A stretch of DNA of 33,968 nt from a virus. The notes under the pieces are model-generated. The model saw only the letters and a list, made by a program, of their open reading frames with translations, had not been told where the DNA came from and did no database searches. The translations under genes were made by a program, and so were the position numbers. Each line of letters begins with the position of its first letter. Position 1 is the stretch's first letter. Location: positions 1 through 33,968 of IMG/VR virus record IMGVR_UViG_3300006802_000280, one strand, 5' to 3'. Shown one piece after another: positions 1,085-7,826 of this stretch.

Positions 1085-1405
1085 ATGTCGAAGTCCACCA
1101 CCACCATCGTCAATGCCTCCGCCCTGTTTCGTCAAGCGACCCACGCAACGGAGACGCTGAAGGCGTCCAGCAAAGCCCGCGTTCTCAACCAAAAGGAATT
1201 CCGGGACGCTACTGGCCTGAAAGGCCAGCACATGAAGCGGGAGTATCGGAAATATCTCACCGATACGAACCGTGAAGTCCGTCAGTCCATGTCGAGTTAC
1301 GACGTGAAATCCATCCGCCACGCCAATAATGGTAAGACCATTGTCGTTACCTACACGCCTCGGTTCAAGGCCACCAAGCCCCGTCGTCGCAAGGCGACGA
1401 AGTAA
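1085..1405 (+). CDS. Small basic hypothetical protein
   Basis: This is a 106-residue protein with a clear ribosome site (AGAAAGG, nine bases before ATG). It is strongly basic, with a Lys/Arg-rich tail (RFKATKPRRRKATK), so it probably binds nucleic acid. I recognise no family. The middle contains a predicted helical stretch (LNQKEFRDATGLKGQHMKRE) and a C-terminal part that may be beta (GKTIVVTYTPRF). It is the first gene after the structured leader and probably the first early gene of the plus-strand operon. The final codons can form a CGTCG/CGACG stem in the mRNA. Its position next to a structured RNA makes an RNA-binding or ribonucleoprotein role worth testing, but nothing shows it directly. 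Confidence 0.7.
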   Translation: MSKSTTTIVNASALFRQATHATETLKASSKARVLNQKEFRDATGLKGQHMKREYRKYLTDTNREVRQSMSSYDVKSIRHANNGKTIVVTYTPRFKATKPRRRKATK

Positions 1406-1523: not shown

Positions 1524-2990
1524 ATGGCTATCAATACATCAGACCTAGAATTCGTAGTCGGACCCCGCGCCACCGCAATCGTGACCTCGGTCCCGTCCAC
1601 GAATCGCAACGCCACAAAGAAGTGGCTCCGGGACAACGGCGTCTACCACGAAGTGGCTGGGGCGTTGTCGCTGGCGGAGCTGACCGACATCGTGCGGGAC
1701 GAAACCGACGGTCTCCTGAACCACGCCAAGGACAGCGGCACGGTCGAGGAATACCGGGCCGCTTTGTCCAAGCCAACCATGCCGGTCCCGCCCAAGCCGA
1801 CGCCGGCTCCGGCTCCCGCTCCGAGCCCCACGCTGGACACCAGTAGCTTGGGGCTGGGCATCCTCGAAGGGGCGATCAAGACGCTGGTCGTAGACGTTGT
1901 CAACAGCACCCCGTCCGGGGTGAACGAAGACGAGGTCAAGGGCATCGTCAAGGGCATCCTAGATGCCGAGGGCATCGACGAAAGCAAGATCAAGTGCGCC
2001 GTCGCGAAAGCGATCAGGGACGCCGGTGTGCAGGACCTGATCGACGCAGTCAACGCCACCGCTGGCACCACTGCCCGCACCCCGGTCGTGGTCACCGCTG
2101 CCAAGGGCAGCAAGATCATGGCGCAGATCGCTCCGTTCTACGTCCCCGGCAAGGATAGCGGGACGCAGATCATGCTCACCAGCCCGCCGTCTTTCGGCAA
2201 GAGCCACACCATCCGGCAGCTGGGGCAGACGTATGACGTTTACCTCGAGCACGGCTGCTCTGATGACCTCGACGAGGTCACTACGCTGTTGGGTAATCCG
2301 TCGCCGGACGAAGACGGTGGCTTCATCGTCTTCGATGGAGTCATCGTGGAGGCTGTCCGGGCTGCGGCCGAAGGCAAGAGCGTTCTGCTCCTGCTCGACG
2401 AGGTCCTTCGCCTGCCCACCAAGGCACAGGAGTGGCTGCTCATGTTCATGACTGGATACGAGAAAGCAGACGGCAGCGTCTGGTATCGCCTCCGGACACG
2501 CCGCGTCGAGGATCGTAAGCTGGAGGTGATCGAGGCACCCGCCACTCACTTCCACCTGATCTCGGCCACGAACCTCGGGTTGATCAACCCGGTCGAGGCG
2601 TTCTGGTCCCGCTGGGAAACGTGCCGCATCGAATGGAACGAGGCGGACGCCACCGCCATCGGCCAGTCCATCATGGATTCCTTTGGAATCCTCGCTCCCG
2701 CCGCACCGGCCAAGCCGAGGCTGGCCAACGCATTCGCCAAGCTGATCGGCGAATCCCGCCGGGCCCTCAAGGAGGGCAAGGTAAACAAGCCCATTGACTT
2801 CCGCATCCTGAAGCGGGCTTGCAAAGCCTGTCCGGACCCGACCGAACGCGGCATCGCCGAGTTCATGGCTAGGCGCATCACTAACAACTGCGCCAGCTGG
2901 GACGGCGACACCGGCGACATGGATGCCGAGTCCAAGGGACTCACCGAAGGCTGGGCCACCACGCTCAAGTCGATTCACGGGGCTGTGTAA
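1524..2990 (+). CDS. MoxR/CobS-like AAA+ ATPase
   Basis: The protein has 488 residues. The N-terminal ~85 residues form a small helical domain, followed by a Pro/Ala linker (about 87-103) and a helical region to ~195. The AAA+ core follows: a degenerate Walker A at about 220-228 (SPPSFGKSH, keeping GKS), Walker B LLLLDEV at about 288-294, a sensor-1-like ISATN at 346-350, and a likely arginine finger in FWSRWE (R363). Enzymes of this MoxR/CobS class use ATP to remodel partners that carry VWA domains. The next gene encodes exactly such a partner, 49 bases downstream, each gene having its own GAAAGGAA ribosome site. The substrate is unknown. A link to cobalt chelation itself is unlikely; the resemblance is architectural. 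The residues after 380 are helical, resembling an AAA+ lid plus extension. Confidence 0.75.
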   Translation: MAINTSDLEFVVGPRATAIVTSVPSTNRNATKKWLRDNGVYHEVAGALSLAELTDIVRDETDGLLNHAKDSGTVEEYRAALSKPTMPVPPKPTPAPAPAPSPTLDTSSLGLGILEGAIKTLVVDVVNSTPSGVNEDEVKGIVKGILDAEGIDESKIKCAVAKAIRDAGVQDLIDAVNATAGTTARTPVVVTAAKGSKIMAQIAPFYVPGKDSGTQIMLTSPPSFGKSHTIRQLGQTYDVYLEHGCSDDLDEVTTLLGNPSPDEDGGFIVFDGVIVEAVRAAAEGKSVLLLLDEVLRLPTKAQEWLLMFMTGYEKADGSVWYRLRTRRVEDRKLEVIEAPATHFHLISATNLGLINPVEAFWSRWETCRIEWNEADATAIGQSIMDSFGILAPAAPAKPRLANAFAKLIGESRRALKEGKVNKPIDFRILKRACKACPDPTERGIAEFMARRITNNCASWDGDTGDMDAESKGLTEGWATTLKSIHGAV

Positions 2991-3039
2991 CAGCCCTTTC
3001 CTCTCTCACCCTGCAACTATCATCGAAAGGAACTCAATT

Positions 3040-4689
3040 ATGTCTCTGATCACCGTCAAAGAAACTGTGTCCGCCATCAAGAAGGCGGTTTCATTCTGCA
3101 AGCGGCGTCCCGTGGGCCGACAGAAGGAAGGCGTCCTTCACTACCTCGCCAACAAGCGGGTCAACGGAGTCGACCGAGTCAATGTCGACATCCGTGAGAA
3201 GTTCGACACCGCCTGCTGGAAAGTCGACACTGTCCGGGGCCGCCGCACCCACCTCATCCACATCGGCGACGACATCGCCAAGCGGTTGAAGGCGGGGCTC
3301 GCTGCCACTACGAACCGGCTCAACTACCTGAAGTCCTTCGCCGCCGCGCTCACGTGGCACGAGGCGGAGCACGGGCTGAACTCCGAGCAGGACCTGCCCC
3401 GTGTCGCCCAGCTGTGCGAGGATCGGAAGGTCCCCTTCCGCCTGCTGAACCTGTTTGAAGACGCTCGCATCGAGCACCTCGGGAGAGAGCGGGTGAAGGA
3501 TGGCCGCCGCCAGCCCCGTTTCGGCTGGGTCAAGTGGGAGGAATGCAAGCCGCACACCTCCGAGCCCGGCGCATGGTTCTTCGCTCATGTGAAGACCGAA
3601 GCGTCATCGTATGTCGGTGATCGGGCCGCTGTCCGGAGGCACACCCGCTGGACAGGGAATGCTCACGACGACACGCTTGTGACGCAGTTCTACCGCCGGG
3701 CCTGCCGCATCCCGTCCACGCTGGCCATGATCCCGCTCTGCGAGGAATGGCTCCGCCACTTCCCCGGACTGCCGCAAGGTTGCGACTGGGTGGAGGACAA
3801 CATCGGCGGCAAGGAATGCCCCATCGCCGTGACCGAAGGCAAGACCGGGTCCGGATACAACGAAGGCGGTGGCTCCATCACCGGAGGCAACGAGTCCAAG
3901 TATGACGGCGAGCTCGCCACCGGCGACACCCCGACATCGGCGGAACAGATGGAACTGGAACCCTTCCTTGCTCCGAAGAACAAGGAAGGTGATAGCTGGC
4001 TGGCCAAGTGGAAGGGCGTCGATTGGAACATGGTCCGCCGCCTGATGCACAAACTGATCGGCATCGTCCACCTCGCTGGACACGCACCGACTCGGGTCGG
4101 GATGTCCGGCTCCCGCCTCCACATCCCCAACGTGGCAGCCCGACGGGCTGACTGCTTCCGGGGCAACCGACAAGACAACGGCAAGCCTAGCCTGACGTTC
4201 ATCATCGACTGCTCGGGCAGCATGTGCGGTCGGGACTTCAAGGACGGCGAGAACCTGTTGCTCGCACTGATCGGGATGCACCGACGGGGAATCATCCACG
4301 CCGACATCTTCACCACCGGCGGAGGCAAGCACTGCCAGATCAATCCGCATTGGAAATATGAGGTCATCGAGAGGCTGCTCCCAACCCACGGTTGCGAGTC
4401 TGTCCGGGCCACGTTGGAGGCACCGAAAGTGCGCCGCTCAATCCGGTCGACCGACACAACCATCGTCTACACCGACGCTCAACTGACCGACGGCAATGTC
4501 AACGCCAACCAGTATCGGCGGATGGGTGTCGACCTGCTGGGCTGCGTCACCGTCGACGACCCCGGACTCAAGGAGTCCGCATCGCGGCAGATGGCCCGCC
4601 ACTTCGGAGCCTACTTCGTAGAGGACTCGGCACCACAGCTGGCCACCCGCATCGTCAACCACGTGGCACGGAGGAACCATTGTGGGTAG
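3040..4689 (+). CDS. CobT-like protein: zincin-like HEXXH domain plus VWA domain
   Basis: I start at ATG 3040 because GAAAGGAAC lies just upstream; the frame is open further back but only over the end of the previous gene. The protein has 549 residues. The N-terminal part has HEAEH at about 107-111 and NLFEDARIE at 137-145, the pattern of the putative metallopeptidase domain found in CobT/DUF2201-like VWA proteins (two His plus a downstream acidic ligand). A C-terminal VWA domain begins near 385 with a MIDAS motif DCSGSM (390-395) and has a later acidic residue in YTDAQ (D479). Acidic and Gly-rich linker sequence lies between ~260 and 310. With the AAA+ gene upstream this forms a MoxR/VWA pair: the ATPase probably remodels a target delivered by the VWA protein. 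Whether the HEXXH site cuts protein or only binds metal is open. Confidence 0.75.
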   Translation: MSLITVKETVSAIKKAVSFCKRRPVGRQKEGVLHYLANKRVNGVDRVNVDIREKFDTACWKVDTVRGRRTHLIHIGDDIAKRLKAGLAATTNRLNYLKSFAAALTWHEAEHGLNSEQDLPRVAQLCEDRKVPFRLLNLFEDARIEHLGRERVKDGRRQPRFGWVKWEECKPHTSEPGAWFFAHVKTEASSYVGDRAAVRRHTRWTGNAHDDTLVTQFYRRACRIPSTLAMIPLCEEWLRHFPGLPQGCDWVEDNIGGKECPIAVTEGKTGSGYNEGGGSITGGNESKYDGELATGDTPTSAEQMELEPFLAPKNKEGDSWLAKWKGVDWNMVRRLMHKLIGIVHLAGHAPTRVGMSGSRLHIPNVAARRADCFRGNRQDNGKPSLTFIIDCSGSMCGRDFKDGENLLLALIGMHRRGIIHADIFTTGGGKHCQINPHWKYEVIERLLPTHGCESVRATLEAPKVRRSIRSTDTTIVYTDAQLTDGNVNANQYRRMGVDLLGCVTVDDPGLKESASRQMARHFGAYFVEDSAPQLATRIVNHVARRNHCG

Positions 4690-4864
4690 AACACGAAGGC
4701 TGTCCTTCACGGGGCGGGGACACACTCCCCGCCTCGCCTCGGACAGAGTAACCATCCGCAGTCCCCGCTTCCGCAACGCTAAGGCGATGGCGTTGGAGGC
4801 ATGGGAGGAACAACAGTTCGTCGCCACCATCCGCAACCTCAACATCAGAAAGGAATCAGAATGA
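4682..4864 (+). CDS. Small hypothetical protein, GTG start
   Basis: The gene encodes 60 residues and starts with GTG, seven bases after a strong GGAGG. It overlaps the end of the VWA gene by eight bases. Its stop codon overlaps the next ATG exactly (ATGA at 4861-4864). Good ribosome site plus coupling at both ends is why I keep it, although it matches no family I know. The protein is Arg-rich in its first half and ends in a helical stretch (AMALEAWEEQQFVATIRNL). It could be an adaptor for the AAA/VWA pair; that is only an inference from position. Confidence 0.55.
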   Translation: MGRTRRLSFTGRGHTPRLASDRVTIRSPRFRNAKAMALEAWEEQQFVATIRNLNIRKESE

Positions 4865-5292
4865 CTAACCCTTGGATCACCTCATCCCGTCCGGCCCGTG
4901 TCCGGACCCCGTTCAAAACCACGAAGGCACTGCTCGTCGACGCCATGGCGGCGGGCAGCGTGTTCGGAATCTCGTTCGACTTCGTCGTGCCCGGCAAGGG
5001 TGACGATGACAAGATCACCGACCAGCTGCTGGACTGGGCAGACTTCCATGCCCTGTCCATCGGCGGCGTGACTGGACACAAGTCCGAGTTCTCCGCTGAA
5101 GCTCGCACCGAAGGTGACAGCCTGACCGGCGTCGAGTTTGCGGGAGCGGTCTTCGACTTGTCGAAGCGGTTCGACAACCTGCTGGACGGGACAGCCAGCT
5201 GGACAGACACACAGGAAGCGACCACCCCGCCGCTTACCTTCGCCACCATCCGGCTGTCCAAGCTGGAGAAACTCAACCACATCGAAGCATGA
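4861..5292 (+). CDS. Hypothetical protein of the AAA/VWA cassette
   Basis: This is a 143-residue protein starting at ATG 4861, with AGAAAGGAATCAG just before it. The sequence suggests a mixed alpha/beta fold: a beta strand FGISFDFVVPG near 35-45, a helical segment around DQLLDWADFHAL, and a further strand (LTGVEFAGAVFDLSKRF). There is no recognisable catalytic motif and no membrane segment. It is joined to its neighbours on both sides by four-base ATGA overlaps, so it is probably made in step with them and may act in the same process as the ATPase/VWA pair. Confidence 0.65.
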   Translation: MTNPWITSSRPARVRTPFKTTKALLVDAMAAGSVFGISFDFVVPGKGDDDKITDQLLDWADFHALSIGGVTGHKSEFSAEARTEGDSLTGVEFAGAVFDLSKRFDNLLDGTASWTDTQEATTPPLTFATIRLSKLEKLNHIEA

Positions 5293-5633
5293 CTACGTTT
5301 CTCCACATACCCAAACACGACGAGCTGCCGGACAACCAGATCGTCGTCCCCAACCCGGACACCAAGACGTTGTTGAGTCTCGACACCTGCTCCCGCTACC
5401 CGGTCGGGACACCAATCCTCATCGACGGCTTCGAGATCAGGACTCACGTTGCCATGCTGAAGCCGGGCTGGTTCAAGTTGCGGACACCGGTCAACCTCAC
5501 CCCGACCGGAGTGCCGGCTGGACACGCCGACCTCGTAGTCGCAGCCAGCGACGACGGCAAGCACGAGATCGTCATCCATCTCCGCCCCGGTAACAGTTCA
5601 TTCACCGCAACCCTAACTGACTACGACCTATGA
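5289..5633 (+). CDS. Hypothetical protein of the AAA/VWA cassette
   Basis: The protein has 114 residues, starts at the ATGA overlap with the preceding gene, and ends in another ATGA overlap. It looks beta-rich, with alternating hydrophobic stretches such as GTPILIDGFEIRTHVAML, HADLVVAA and HEIVIHLRPG, which would suit a small beta-barrel or sandwich. There are no Cys pairs, signal peptide or membrane segment. I do not recognise the family. Its function can only be linked to the cassette by position. Confidence 0.65.
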   Translation: MTTFLHIPKHDELPDNQIVVPNPDTKTLLSLDTCSRYPVGTPILIDGFEIRTHVAMLKPGWFKLRTPVNLTPTGVPAGHADLVVAASDDGKHEIVIHLRPGNSSFTATLTDYDL

Positions 5634-5797
5634 GCATAAACCAGCAAGACTACTGCCCGCCAGACGAGTTCAACGAGGAATTCAAAGGCTGCCCCATGTG
5701 CAACGGCACGGGGATCATCCGCACCACCATCGACGAGGAACCCGCCGAGGTCCGGTGCTCGACCTGCTTTCCCGTGGGTAGGGAGGTGGGCGCATGA
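5630..5797 (+). CDS. 55-residue zinc-ribbon protein
   Basis: The short gene starts at ATG 5630 inside the stop of the previous gene and ends in an ATGA overlap with the next. It contains CPMCNGTG near residues 26-33 and CSTC near 44-47. Two CxxC pairs, the first followed by GTG, resemble half of the DnaJ-type or a small zinc-ribbon fold. It is likely to bind one zinc ion and act in protein or nucleic acid contact. It is supported by overlap coupling and by the Cys pattern despite its size. Confidence 0.6.
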   Translation: MSINQQDYCPPDEFNEEFKGCPMCNGTGIIRTTIDEEPAEVRCSTCFPVGREVGA

Positions 5798-6276
5798 GCT
5801 ACGAAGTCATCACCATCCCCAACCTCGACCGAGGCATCCGCCTGTTCAAAACCGACCCGCCCCCTACGTTCTGGGGGCGGGTGTCCATGTTGGAACATCT
5901 GGAGGCGACGCTCGGAACCGAGATCAAGCGGTGGTATGTGGGCCGGACGCCGGGCCCCCCGACCCACCTCGTCCGGTGTAACATCGCTGTCCGGTGGCCG
6001 GAACCTGACCGGGAACCTGTCCATCCCGACGAGCTCGGCGGATATCACAACCATGTGGCGTTCGACATCGCCCTCGTCATCCCTTTGTTCGGCGGGATGG
6101 GCGAAGACAACGGAGGGACAGCCGTCCCCGGACCGGATCCGGTCAACGACTGGACCATCCCCTACGTCGACGAAGGTGAGGCCCTCCTGATGTCCGGCGA
6201 CCAGCTGCACGGGTTCACCGTGAACACCAGCTTCTACCCCCGCCTCGCGGCGACCTTCTTCTGCCGGCCAAACTGA
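5794..6276 (+). CDS. Hypothetical protein, possible cupin/2OG-oxygenase-like fold
   Basis: The protein has 160 residues and is the last gene of the cassette. The second half shows NHVAFDIALVIPLFG, then DEGEALLMSGDQLHGFTVN and FYPRLAATFF. A Gly-containing strand leading into a 'GDQLHGF' turn and a late Arg resembles the C-terminal part of double-stranded beta-helix proteins (cupins, Fe/2-oxoglutarate oxygenases), where His binds metal and Arg binds the co-substrate. A clear HxD...H set is not evident (H55, D60 and H192-type spacing cannot be assigned), so I call only a fold resemblance. It is followed by a 395-base gene-free segment, so the operon probably ends or is re-started after it. Confidence 0.55.
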   Translation: MSYEVITIPNLDRGIRLFKTDPPPTFWGRVSMLEHLEATLGTEIKRWYVGRTPGPPTHLVRCNIAVRWPEPDREPVHPDELGGYHNHVAFDIALVIPLFGGMGEDNGGTAVPGPDPVNDWTIPYVDEGEALLMSGDQLHGFTVNTSFYPRLAATFFCRPN

Positions 6277-6290
6277 ACAAACCGGACAGG

Positions 6291-6620
6291 GTGGACCTTG
6301 CACCGGACAAGGTCGACCCACTTCACCCCTGTAAACACAGGCTCAAACCAATGGGGGTGGAGCACCATGGTAGGAGCCCCGTCTGTTAGGGTCCACCGCT
6401 TAACCCGGCACACACCAACGACTTACGCACCCTCTGTAGTATCTTTCTAGAGAGAGAGAGAGAGAGAGATAAAAAGAAAGATATAATATGGTATGTATAT
6501 AATACGACCTCGGACCATGGTCCTACGGTCCACCCTTGGTCCACTTCGACCCTGCAAATAAAGGGCGAAACGAAGGTGGCCCCCCCCCTCAAACCGGGTC
6601 CACTTTGGAATATGGTCCAC
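6291..6620. repeat. Six GGTCCAC motifs, possible integrase arm sites or operators
   Basis: Direct copies of GGTCCAC start at 6390, 6527, 6538, 6597 and 6614; an inverted copy GTGGACC lies at 6291-6297. All but one are within 330 bases immediately upstream of the integrase gene. By chance, far less than one copy of a given 7-mer is expected in such a length. Tyrosine integrases bind several short arm-type repeats beside the attachment core, and repressors bind similar arrays; either would fit. Confidence 0.5.
6449..6469 (+). repeat. AG dinucleotide repeat (10 units)
   Basis: Ten AG units run from 6449 to 6468 with one further A. Such a purine run is unusual in this dense GC-rich genome and may change length by slippage. 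It lies between GGTCCAC copies, so length changes would alter their spacing. Confidence 0.85.
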
Positions 6621-6632
6621 CACCGGCATAGC

Positions 6633-6661
6633 TTGACAACCGACAACCCTGTTGCATAACT
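6633..6661 (+). promoter_or_regulatory. Integrase promoter, near-leaderless
   Basis: TTGACA (6633-6638) is followed by CATAAC/ATAACT at 6655-6661, a 16-17 base spacing, with TG before it. Transcription should begin near 6667, only about five bases before ATG 6672. There is no Shine-Dalgarno sequence in front of that ATG, so a leaderless or almost leaderless mRNA is likely. Confidence 0.55.
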
Positions 6662-6671
6662 AACACTCATC

Positions 6672-7826
6672 ATGTCTCACCGAAACAAAACCGCATCCTT
6701 ACGACACTACCCTAAACCGGGACAGAAACCGTGGCTTCTGGAAATCCCCGAATCGTATATTGGAAAGCGAATACGACAGCGATTCAGCACCGAAGCCGAG
6801 GGCAAAACCGCCCTAGAATACCATACCGCCCGCGCACGTAAGGGGGCCAAGCTCCCGATCTCCACCCCCGAAGCCCTGCTCCTTGCCCGCTACCGTGGCC
6901 GGCTCTCCCTCACCGAGATGGGCCGGGCCTTGGACGGTGCGCTGGCCACCAAGGAGAAGTTGATCACCCCCCTCCGCAAGGTGGCCTACCTCTACCTAGA
7001 CCACGTGGATCGCCGACACCGGGCCGGATCCGTGTCCGACCTCCATGCCCGTGACGTTGAGCGGATCATCCCCATCATCATGGACCACGATGTCGGCGAC
7101 ACTCCGCTGGACAAGCTGGCCAAGTCCGACATCCAGAAATGGATCGACAGCCTCCCCCTTGGTGAGAAGTCCAAGCGCAACTACCTCGCCCACTTCCGCA
7201 CCATCCTCACCTACGCCGTGGCCGAGGGCTACCTGTCTGTCCCGCCGGCCACCGACGTCATCATCCCACCCGAACCCCGCACCATCCCGATCATCACCCC
7301 CGACGAGATGCGCTTCCTGCTGGCTGCCGCCAAGCGACTGCGCTGCCATCCCACCTACTGGTGGTTGATCTTCGGTGGCTTCGCCGGCCTCCGCACCTCC
7401 GAGATCGAGCGACTGGACTGGTCCGACATCCGCCCCGAACACGACGGCGAGCTCTATGTCCGGCCCGGCAAGACCAAGAACTCCGAGCGGTGGGTTGCCT
7501 TCACCGACCCCCTCCACTCCATCGACTGGCACCTCATGCCCAAGTCCGGCAACGTCCTGATGGACACGCCGAAGCGGAAGCGGCAGGACTTGGTGGCCAA
7601 GGTCTACGCACTGGCCAAGACCTCTGTCCCGACCAACGCCCTGCGCCACAGCTTCGCCAGCTACCACCTGTGCTGGCACAAAGAGCCGTCCATCACCGCT
7701 GTTCAGCTTGGCCACCACTCCCCGACCCAAACCTTCGCCGCCTACCGCCGTGCCGTCACGTGGAAGGACAGCAAGGAATGGTTTCGCCTCGTCCCACCCA
7801 TGCTCCCATTCCCCCGATTCAAATGA
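6672..7826 (+). CDS. int: Tyrosine recombinase (integrase)
   Basis: The protein has 384 residues. Its catalytic domain keeps the first Arg in GLRTSEIERLDW (R241), a Lys in GKTKNS, the second Arg in NALRHSFASYH (R325), a His in LGHHSPTQ (H348) and the nucleophile in FAAYRRAV (Y358). The usual His of the HxxR box is Asn (N322), a change I know from integrases of the PVC bacterial group and their phages. The N-terminal half contains an arm-binding/core-binding portion. It would catalyse phage integration and, with the excisionase-like neighbour, excision. The start ATG has no ribosome site but sits just below a good promoter. The repeat-rich segment upstream fits its binding sites. Confidence 0.9.
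   Translation: MSHRNKTASLRHYPKPGQKPWLLEIPESYIGKRIRQRFSTEAEGKTALEYHTARARKGAKLPISTPEALLLARYRGRLSLTEMGRALDGALATKEKLITPLRKVAYLYLDHVDRRHRAGSVSDLHARDVERIIPIIMDHDVGDTPLDKLAKSDIQKWIDSLPLGEKSKRNYLAHFRTILTYAVAEGYLSVPPATDVIIPPEPRTIPIITPDEMRFLLAAAKRLRCHPTYWWLIFGGFAGLRTSEIERLDWSDIRPEHDGELYVRPGKTKNSERWVAFTDPLHSIDWHLMPKSGNVLMDTPKRKRQDLVAKVYALAKTSVPTNALRHSFASYHLCWHKEPSITAVQLGHHSPTQTFAAYRRAVTWKDSKEWFRLVPPMLPFPRFK

Follow-up and report, generated by a model that had tools for sequence, protein, structure and literature searches.

The 33,968-base IMG/VR virus record analyzed here (hereafter the window, meaning the whole stretch) carries two adjoining genes, encoding a MoxR-class AAA+ ATPase and a protein that combines an N-terminal zincin-type site with a C-terminal VWA domain. 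Judged by profile comparisons and predicted folds, this pair is a divergent branch within the viral CobS/CobT-like MoxR-VWA pairs already known. It is probable that the two proteins form a single ATP-driven machine that remodels, and may well cut, other proteins; we infer complex formation, zinc binding and proteolysis from the adjacency of the genes, the intact site signatures, the MoxR-VWA folds and the homology to viral CobS/CobT. Published readings of such pairs are opposed. A role in vitamin B12 synthesis was proposed for the pairs of archaeal tailed viruses (PMC8651126; see also PMC11288001, PMC9503304), whereas Iyer and colleagues proposed a virion-related chaperone-peptidase for the jumbo-phage pair (PMC7824862).

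The ATPase and its zincin-VWA partner

The ATPase gene (positions 1524..2990, + strand) encodes 488 amino acids with an SPPSFGKSH P-loop and an LLLLDEV Walker B motif. An N-terminal helical region (residues ~1-82) and a low-confidence region (~83-183) precede the AAA+ domain and its lid (~185-485). Profile searches against the PDB retrieved Midasin (7e-11), CbbQ (1e-7) and NorQ (1e-6), and the predicted model (mean pLDDT 75) best matched CbbQ2 (Z 17.0, rmsd 3.9, 254 aligned residues) and NorQ (Z 16.8, rmsd 4.0, 249 aligned residues). With its Walker A lysine, Walker B DE, CbbQ/NorQ-like fold and adjoining VWA partner gene, the protein belongs to the MoxR class, as an earlier note on this DNA had proposed. 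That note had also described the Walker A motif as degenerate. Two glycines do depart, but the P-loop GK (of GKS/GKT), the Walker B DE, Asn350 and Arg363 are invariant across 17 aligned ATPases. The close branch has PPSxGKS in common, and an ordinary GxxGxGKT is found in the more distant members; as judged from this alignment, the loop marks the near branch and does not signal inactivity.

The partner (ATG start, 3040..4689, + strand) is a 549-residue protein in which a zincin domain (~40-155), a helical region extending to ~240, a low-confidence linker (~260-325) and a VWA/MIDAS domain (~330-549) follow one another. The zinc-binding/catalytic motif HEAEH (residues 107-111; 3358..3372, + strand) is separated by 25 residues from the NLFEDARIE helix (137-145; 3448..3474, + strand), which contains the probable third zinc ligand. 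The MIDAS motif DCSGSM (390-395; 4207..4224, + strand) lies in the VWA domain and is completed by a downstream T and D within the VWA fold. Both sites had been noticed in the earlier note, and their key residues proved invariant in 17 of 17 aligned relatives: H107, E108, H111, N137, E140, D141, R143, I144 and E145 in the zincin site, and D390, S392, S394 (the DxSxS motif), T478 and D479 in the MIDAS. On this comparison, the conservation is beyond what chance would give. It should be noted that FEDARIE formed part of the bait for some loci, so that its invariance at those loci is partly selected; HExxH was in no bait and was also found at loci baited with the ATPase alone. The conserved HExxH and the downstream acidic candidate for the third ligand give the protein a zincin signature.

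The predicted partner model (mean pLDDT 78.7) displays a zincin-like order, with three strands, the HEAEH helix and a second helix bearing NLFEDARIE. Among solved folds, it matched the Rea1/MDN1 MIDAS domain (Z 14-17) and the NorD VWA domain (Z ~13); the VWA domain took up the whole-protein lists, and the zincin domain drew no solved-structure match of its own. Among viral predicted structures, VWFA and CobT-like proteins of many phages lead, accompanied by proteins of Thermus phage P74-26 and haloarchaeal viruses and by ATV ORF892.

About 30 loci were recovered from IMG/VR by profile scans. Wherever both genes are present, in 27 distinct viral loci, the VWA gene comes immediately after the ATPase gene and is encoded on the same strand; at no such locus were the two found in unrelated places, and HExxH is present throughout. 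Four loci (L021, L022, L023 and L027) encode the zincin part and the VWA part in two adjoining ORFs. Copies of the pair are likewise present in bacterial contigs (Sulfurimonas, Verrucomicrobia, Agitococcus and others), in which no common neighbor was detected except within the related Verrucomicrobia and Sulfurimonas contigs.

Kinship with viral CobS/CobT and the fate of the HExxH motif

Searches of both window proteins in Pfam, PHROGs and NCBIfam and single-sequence searches of the PDB returned nothing convincing. Similarly, tblastn of the window proteins and of four proteins from relatives against cultured phages gave no match at 1e-5, a relaxed limit yielding a marginal match to HCTV-2; no profile match was found in the first 50 kb of Agrobacterium phage Atu_ph07 or the first 100 kb of Synechococcus phage syn9. 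In profile-profile comparison with hhalign, both proteins align at 97% probability with those of roseophage CRP-810, ICP2, SSU5, RHph_N1_15, nickie and a Cobavirinae phage. The ATPase matches viral CobS at 97.2% (E 5e-11), and the zincin region alone matches viral CobT at 96.9% (E 1.8e-10) with HExxH and NLFEDARIE in register. Homology at the profile level therefore extends to both proteins, and the resemblance to CobS/CobT pointed out in the earlier note reflects membership of the viral CobS/CobT-like superfamily. The pairs of CRP-810, ICP2, SSU5, RHph_N1_15, Cobavirinae and HCTV-2 share the two-protein plan with homologous AAA+, VWA and zincin domains. In CRP-810, the likeness extends to the surroundings, CobS and CobT being followed by small genes and then an integrase, with the virion genes on the opposite strand. 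The window family nevertheless forms a separate clade in a VWA tree (30 rows, support 99), and its ATPase-first gene order differs from the CobT-then-CobS order of ICP2, SSU5, RHph_N1_15 and nickie.

This kinship raises the question of whether the pair is a viral cobaltochelatase, in which CobS and CobT, joined by a CobN-type subunit of the host, would carry out cobalt insertion and increase vitamin B12 while the infection proceeds, as in the published proposal. The homology of both window proteins to viral CobS/CobT is in line with such a role, as are the scores of viral CobT proteins with the Pfam models CobT and CobT_C. However, no member of the window alignment passes the CobT models PF06213 or PF11775, none of the 19 records of relatives (the window record set aside) encodes a phage CobN, although the host may supply one, and the ribonucleotide reductase large subunit is missing from the window and 13 related viral records; several of the records searched are fragments. 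That subunit is present in four CobT-bearing phages outside the window family.

The zincin motif itself also bears on this question. Viral CobT loci were fetched by patterns from the VWA domain only, so that the zincin motif was not selected. HExxH, or a form longer by one residue, is kept together with a downstream acidic motif in 75 of 76 viral CobT-like proteins, a count that includes HCTV-2, which was missed by the pattern and re-scored by eye (HEMEH...NVLEDQYID). The longer form (HEAGGH, HEIVCH) was observed in the CobT-like proteins of L101, L134 and L182. The CobT-like protein of Pseudomonas phage nickie (L053, 2753-4837) reads SEISK in place of HExxH, an apparent independent loss. By contrast, the motif is missing in 51 of 57 cellular PF06213 proteins, a sample that leans to high-scoring CobT proteins and to which 18 lower-scoring ones were added by hand; the aligned region reads, for example, KLACHDPKVH...VEQARVEAIG. 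The six cellular proteins that keep the motif group with the window family in a supported set of 38 rows in the VWA tree, which also contains one cellular protein lacking it. The N-terminal regions of viral and cellular CobT are homologous (122 columns, 97.6%, E 3e-12), and bacterial cobaltochelatase CobT shares the VWA domain but lacks HExxH; the zincin region of the window shows no direct alignment with bacterial CobT (5.8% probability). On a VWA-only tree of 163 rows, four changes explain the state of the motif. Because some joins involve long branches, this tree fits loss in CobT or gain elsewhere alike.

Since viral CobT-like proteins keep the site and true bacterial B12 proteins lack it, the viral ones are, from their motifs, more likely to be protein-processing machines than vitamin genes. 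For the window pair, the comparison favors a putative peptidase of some kind, and cobalt insertion appears very unlikely. It is tempting to extend this view to the phage genes annotated as CobS/CobT as a class, which would be ATP-driven metallopeptidase machines, bacterial CobT having lost its peptidase site upon recruitment to cobalt insertion; we hold this wider view tentatively, as an attractive possibility that somewhat less than convinces.

A zincin-type site does not by itself imply cleavage. The conserved site can also be conceived as binding substrate or metal, and the nickie protein indicates that a pair can exist lacking the motif. By analogy with NorQD and RavA-ViaA, the zincin-like domain could serve metal-dependent binding or delivery in a machine that inserts a metal or separates a complex. 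The well-studied MoxR-VWA pairs are not known as proteases (PMC13036017), and the cellular CobT domain retained homology though it lacks the site. However, the catalytic glutamate of HExxH is conserved along with both histidines in the 17 aligned relatives and in the 75 of 76 viral CobT-like proteins, which exceeds the needs of metal binding alone and weakens the case for remodeling without proteolysis; we regard this alternative as rather unlikely.

Genome setting and the integrase-side interval

On the + strand of the window, a 106-aa ORF (1085..1405), the ATPase gene, the zincin-VWA gene, five overlapping small ORFs and a tyrosine integrase gene (6672..7826) are followed by genes for a small HTH protein, a helicase, a PD-(D/E)XK nuclease, a family A DNA polymerase and further replication proteins. 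On the - strand, some of the large ORFs weakly match internal virion and tail families. Only L001 carries, at the same place, a homologue (42% identical) of the 106-aa ORF that precedes the ATPase gene. The record looks truncated at both ends, and its left end cuts an ORF that by eye resembles, in place and sequence, the small terminase ORFs of relatives. Neither Rfam nor tRNA scanning of the window produced a match. The phage of this record is temperate.

For the jumbo-phage MoxR-vWA pair, which by its published description has the same architecture with an N-terminal metallopeptidase, Iyer and colleagues propose that structural proteins of the phage are remodeled and processed during virion assembly (PMC7824862). 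The presence of ATV ORF892 among the structural matches of the partner, with ATV tail chaperones as the analogy, would agree with a similar function here. The window phage differs in having an integrase and, to the extent that the record shows, in not being a jumbo phage. Moreover, the pair is encoded together with the replication genes on one strand and the virion genes occupy the other; CobS/T genes adjoin polymerase, primase or helicase genes in ICP2, SSU5, RHph_N1_15, nickie and a Cobavirinae phage; and the pairs of bacterial contigs have no evident adjoining virion genes. A chaperone-protease of virion assembly is thus an unlikely role for the window pair. Because the pair shares the replication strand, opposite the virion genes and beside the integrase, its location weakly suggests a part in replication, lysogeny or host interaction instead.

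The five small ORFs, all on the + strand, encode 60 (4682-4864, GTG start), 143 (4861-5292), 114 (5289-5633), 55 (5630-5797, with CPMC...CSTC) and 160 amino acids (5794-6276). The earlier note had joined them to the pair as a seven-gene unit, with the small proteins as possible adaptors, and their overlapping start and stop codons suggest co-transcription and coupled translation. This unit did not survive comparison with related loci. None of the five recurs there; in every relative, the small ORFs that lie between VWA gene and integrase are a different, unrelated set. IMG/VR scans with the 143-, 114- and 160-aa proteins, of a kind that reaches close relatives only, found no relative. It is therefore highly improbable that the small proteins are parts of the machine; their genes are best read as variable accessory cargo beside the integrase, outside the conserved pair. 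By eye, the 160-aa protein has the look of a double-stranded beta-helix (HNHVAFD ... GDQLHG ... R), to which the databases lend no support, a PDB search having given no match.

Downstream of the small genes, the integrase gene is the first landmark whose place is fixed, in the window as in L001, L004, L005 and L006. Clustered short repeats precede it in all five (window 6277-6671, L001 7261-7997, L004 8900-9680, L005 10470-11198, L006 10030-10940). GGTCCAC words occur six times in 395 bases of the window and eight times in L001, and GTGCCAC words are found in L004-L006; an AG/CT dinucleotide tract is seen upstream of the integrase in the window, L001, L004 and L005, not in L006. The repeats are possible integrase arm sites. 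Between the small ORFs and the integrase, a stretch resembling a tRNA 3' end is present in L005 (11033-11066) and L006 (10753 onward); the window, L001 and L004 showed no such stretch. The tRNA-like stretch is a candidate attP core in L005 and L006, in which case the ATPase-VWA genes would lie at the prophage end away from the integrase.

A proposed cycle and its implications

Of the solved folds, those of NorQ and CbbQ come nearest to the ATPase, and the NorD VWA domain is among those nearest to its partner. The targets of NorQ-NorD and CbbQ-CbbO are nitric oxide reductase and rubisco, respectively, for which no counterpart was found in the phage system, and the phage partner, unlike NorD and CbbO, has a zincin-type N-terminal domain. 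A finger-in-pore mechanism has been published for NorQD (PMC13036017). By analogy with that cycle, with the zincin domain replacing the N-terminal domain of NorD, the ATPase would assemble into a hexameric ring whose pore receives a finger of the VWA domain, while the MIDAS metal would grip an acidic residue of the target. ATP hydrolysis would then twist the VWA domain against the N-terminal zincin domain via the flexible linker, and this twisting may pull the target and offer a segment to the zinc site for cleavage.

Viral MoxR-VWA pairs of this kind were already known, and the window pair adds a divergent branch to them. Many reports list phage cobS and cobT among the auxiliary metabolic genes of vitamin B12. 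The split of the HExxH motif between viral and cellular CobT would provide a simple test to separate a B12 role from a peptidase role in phages amenable to laboratory culture.
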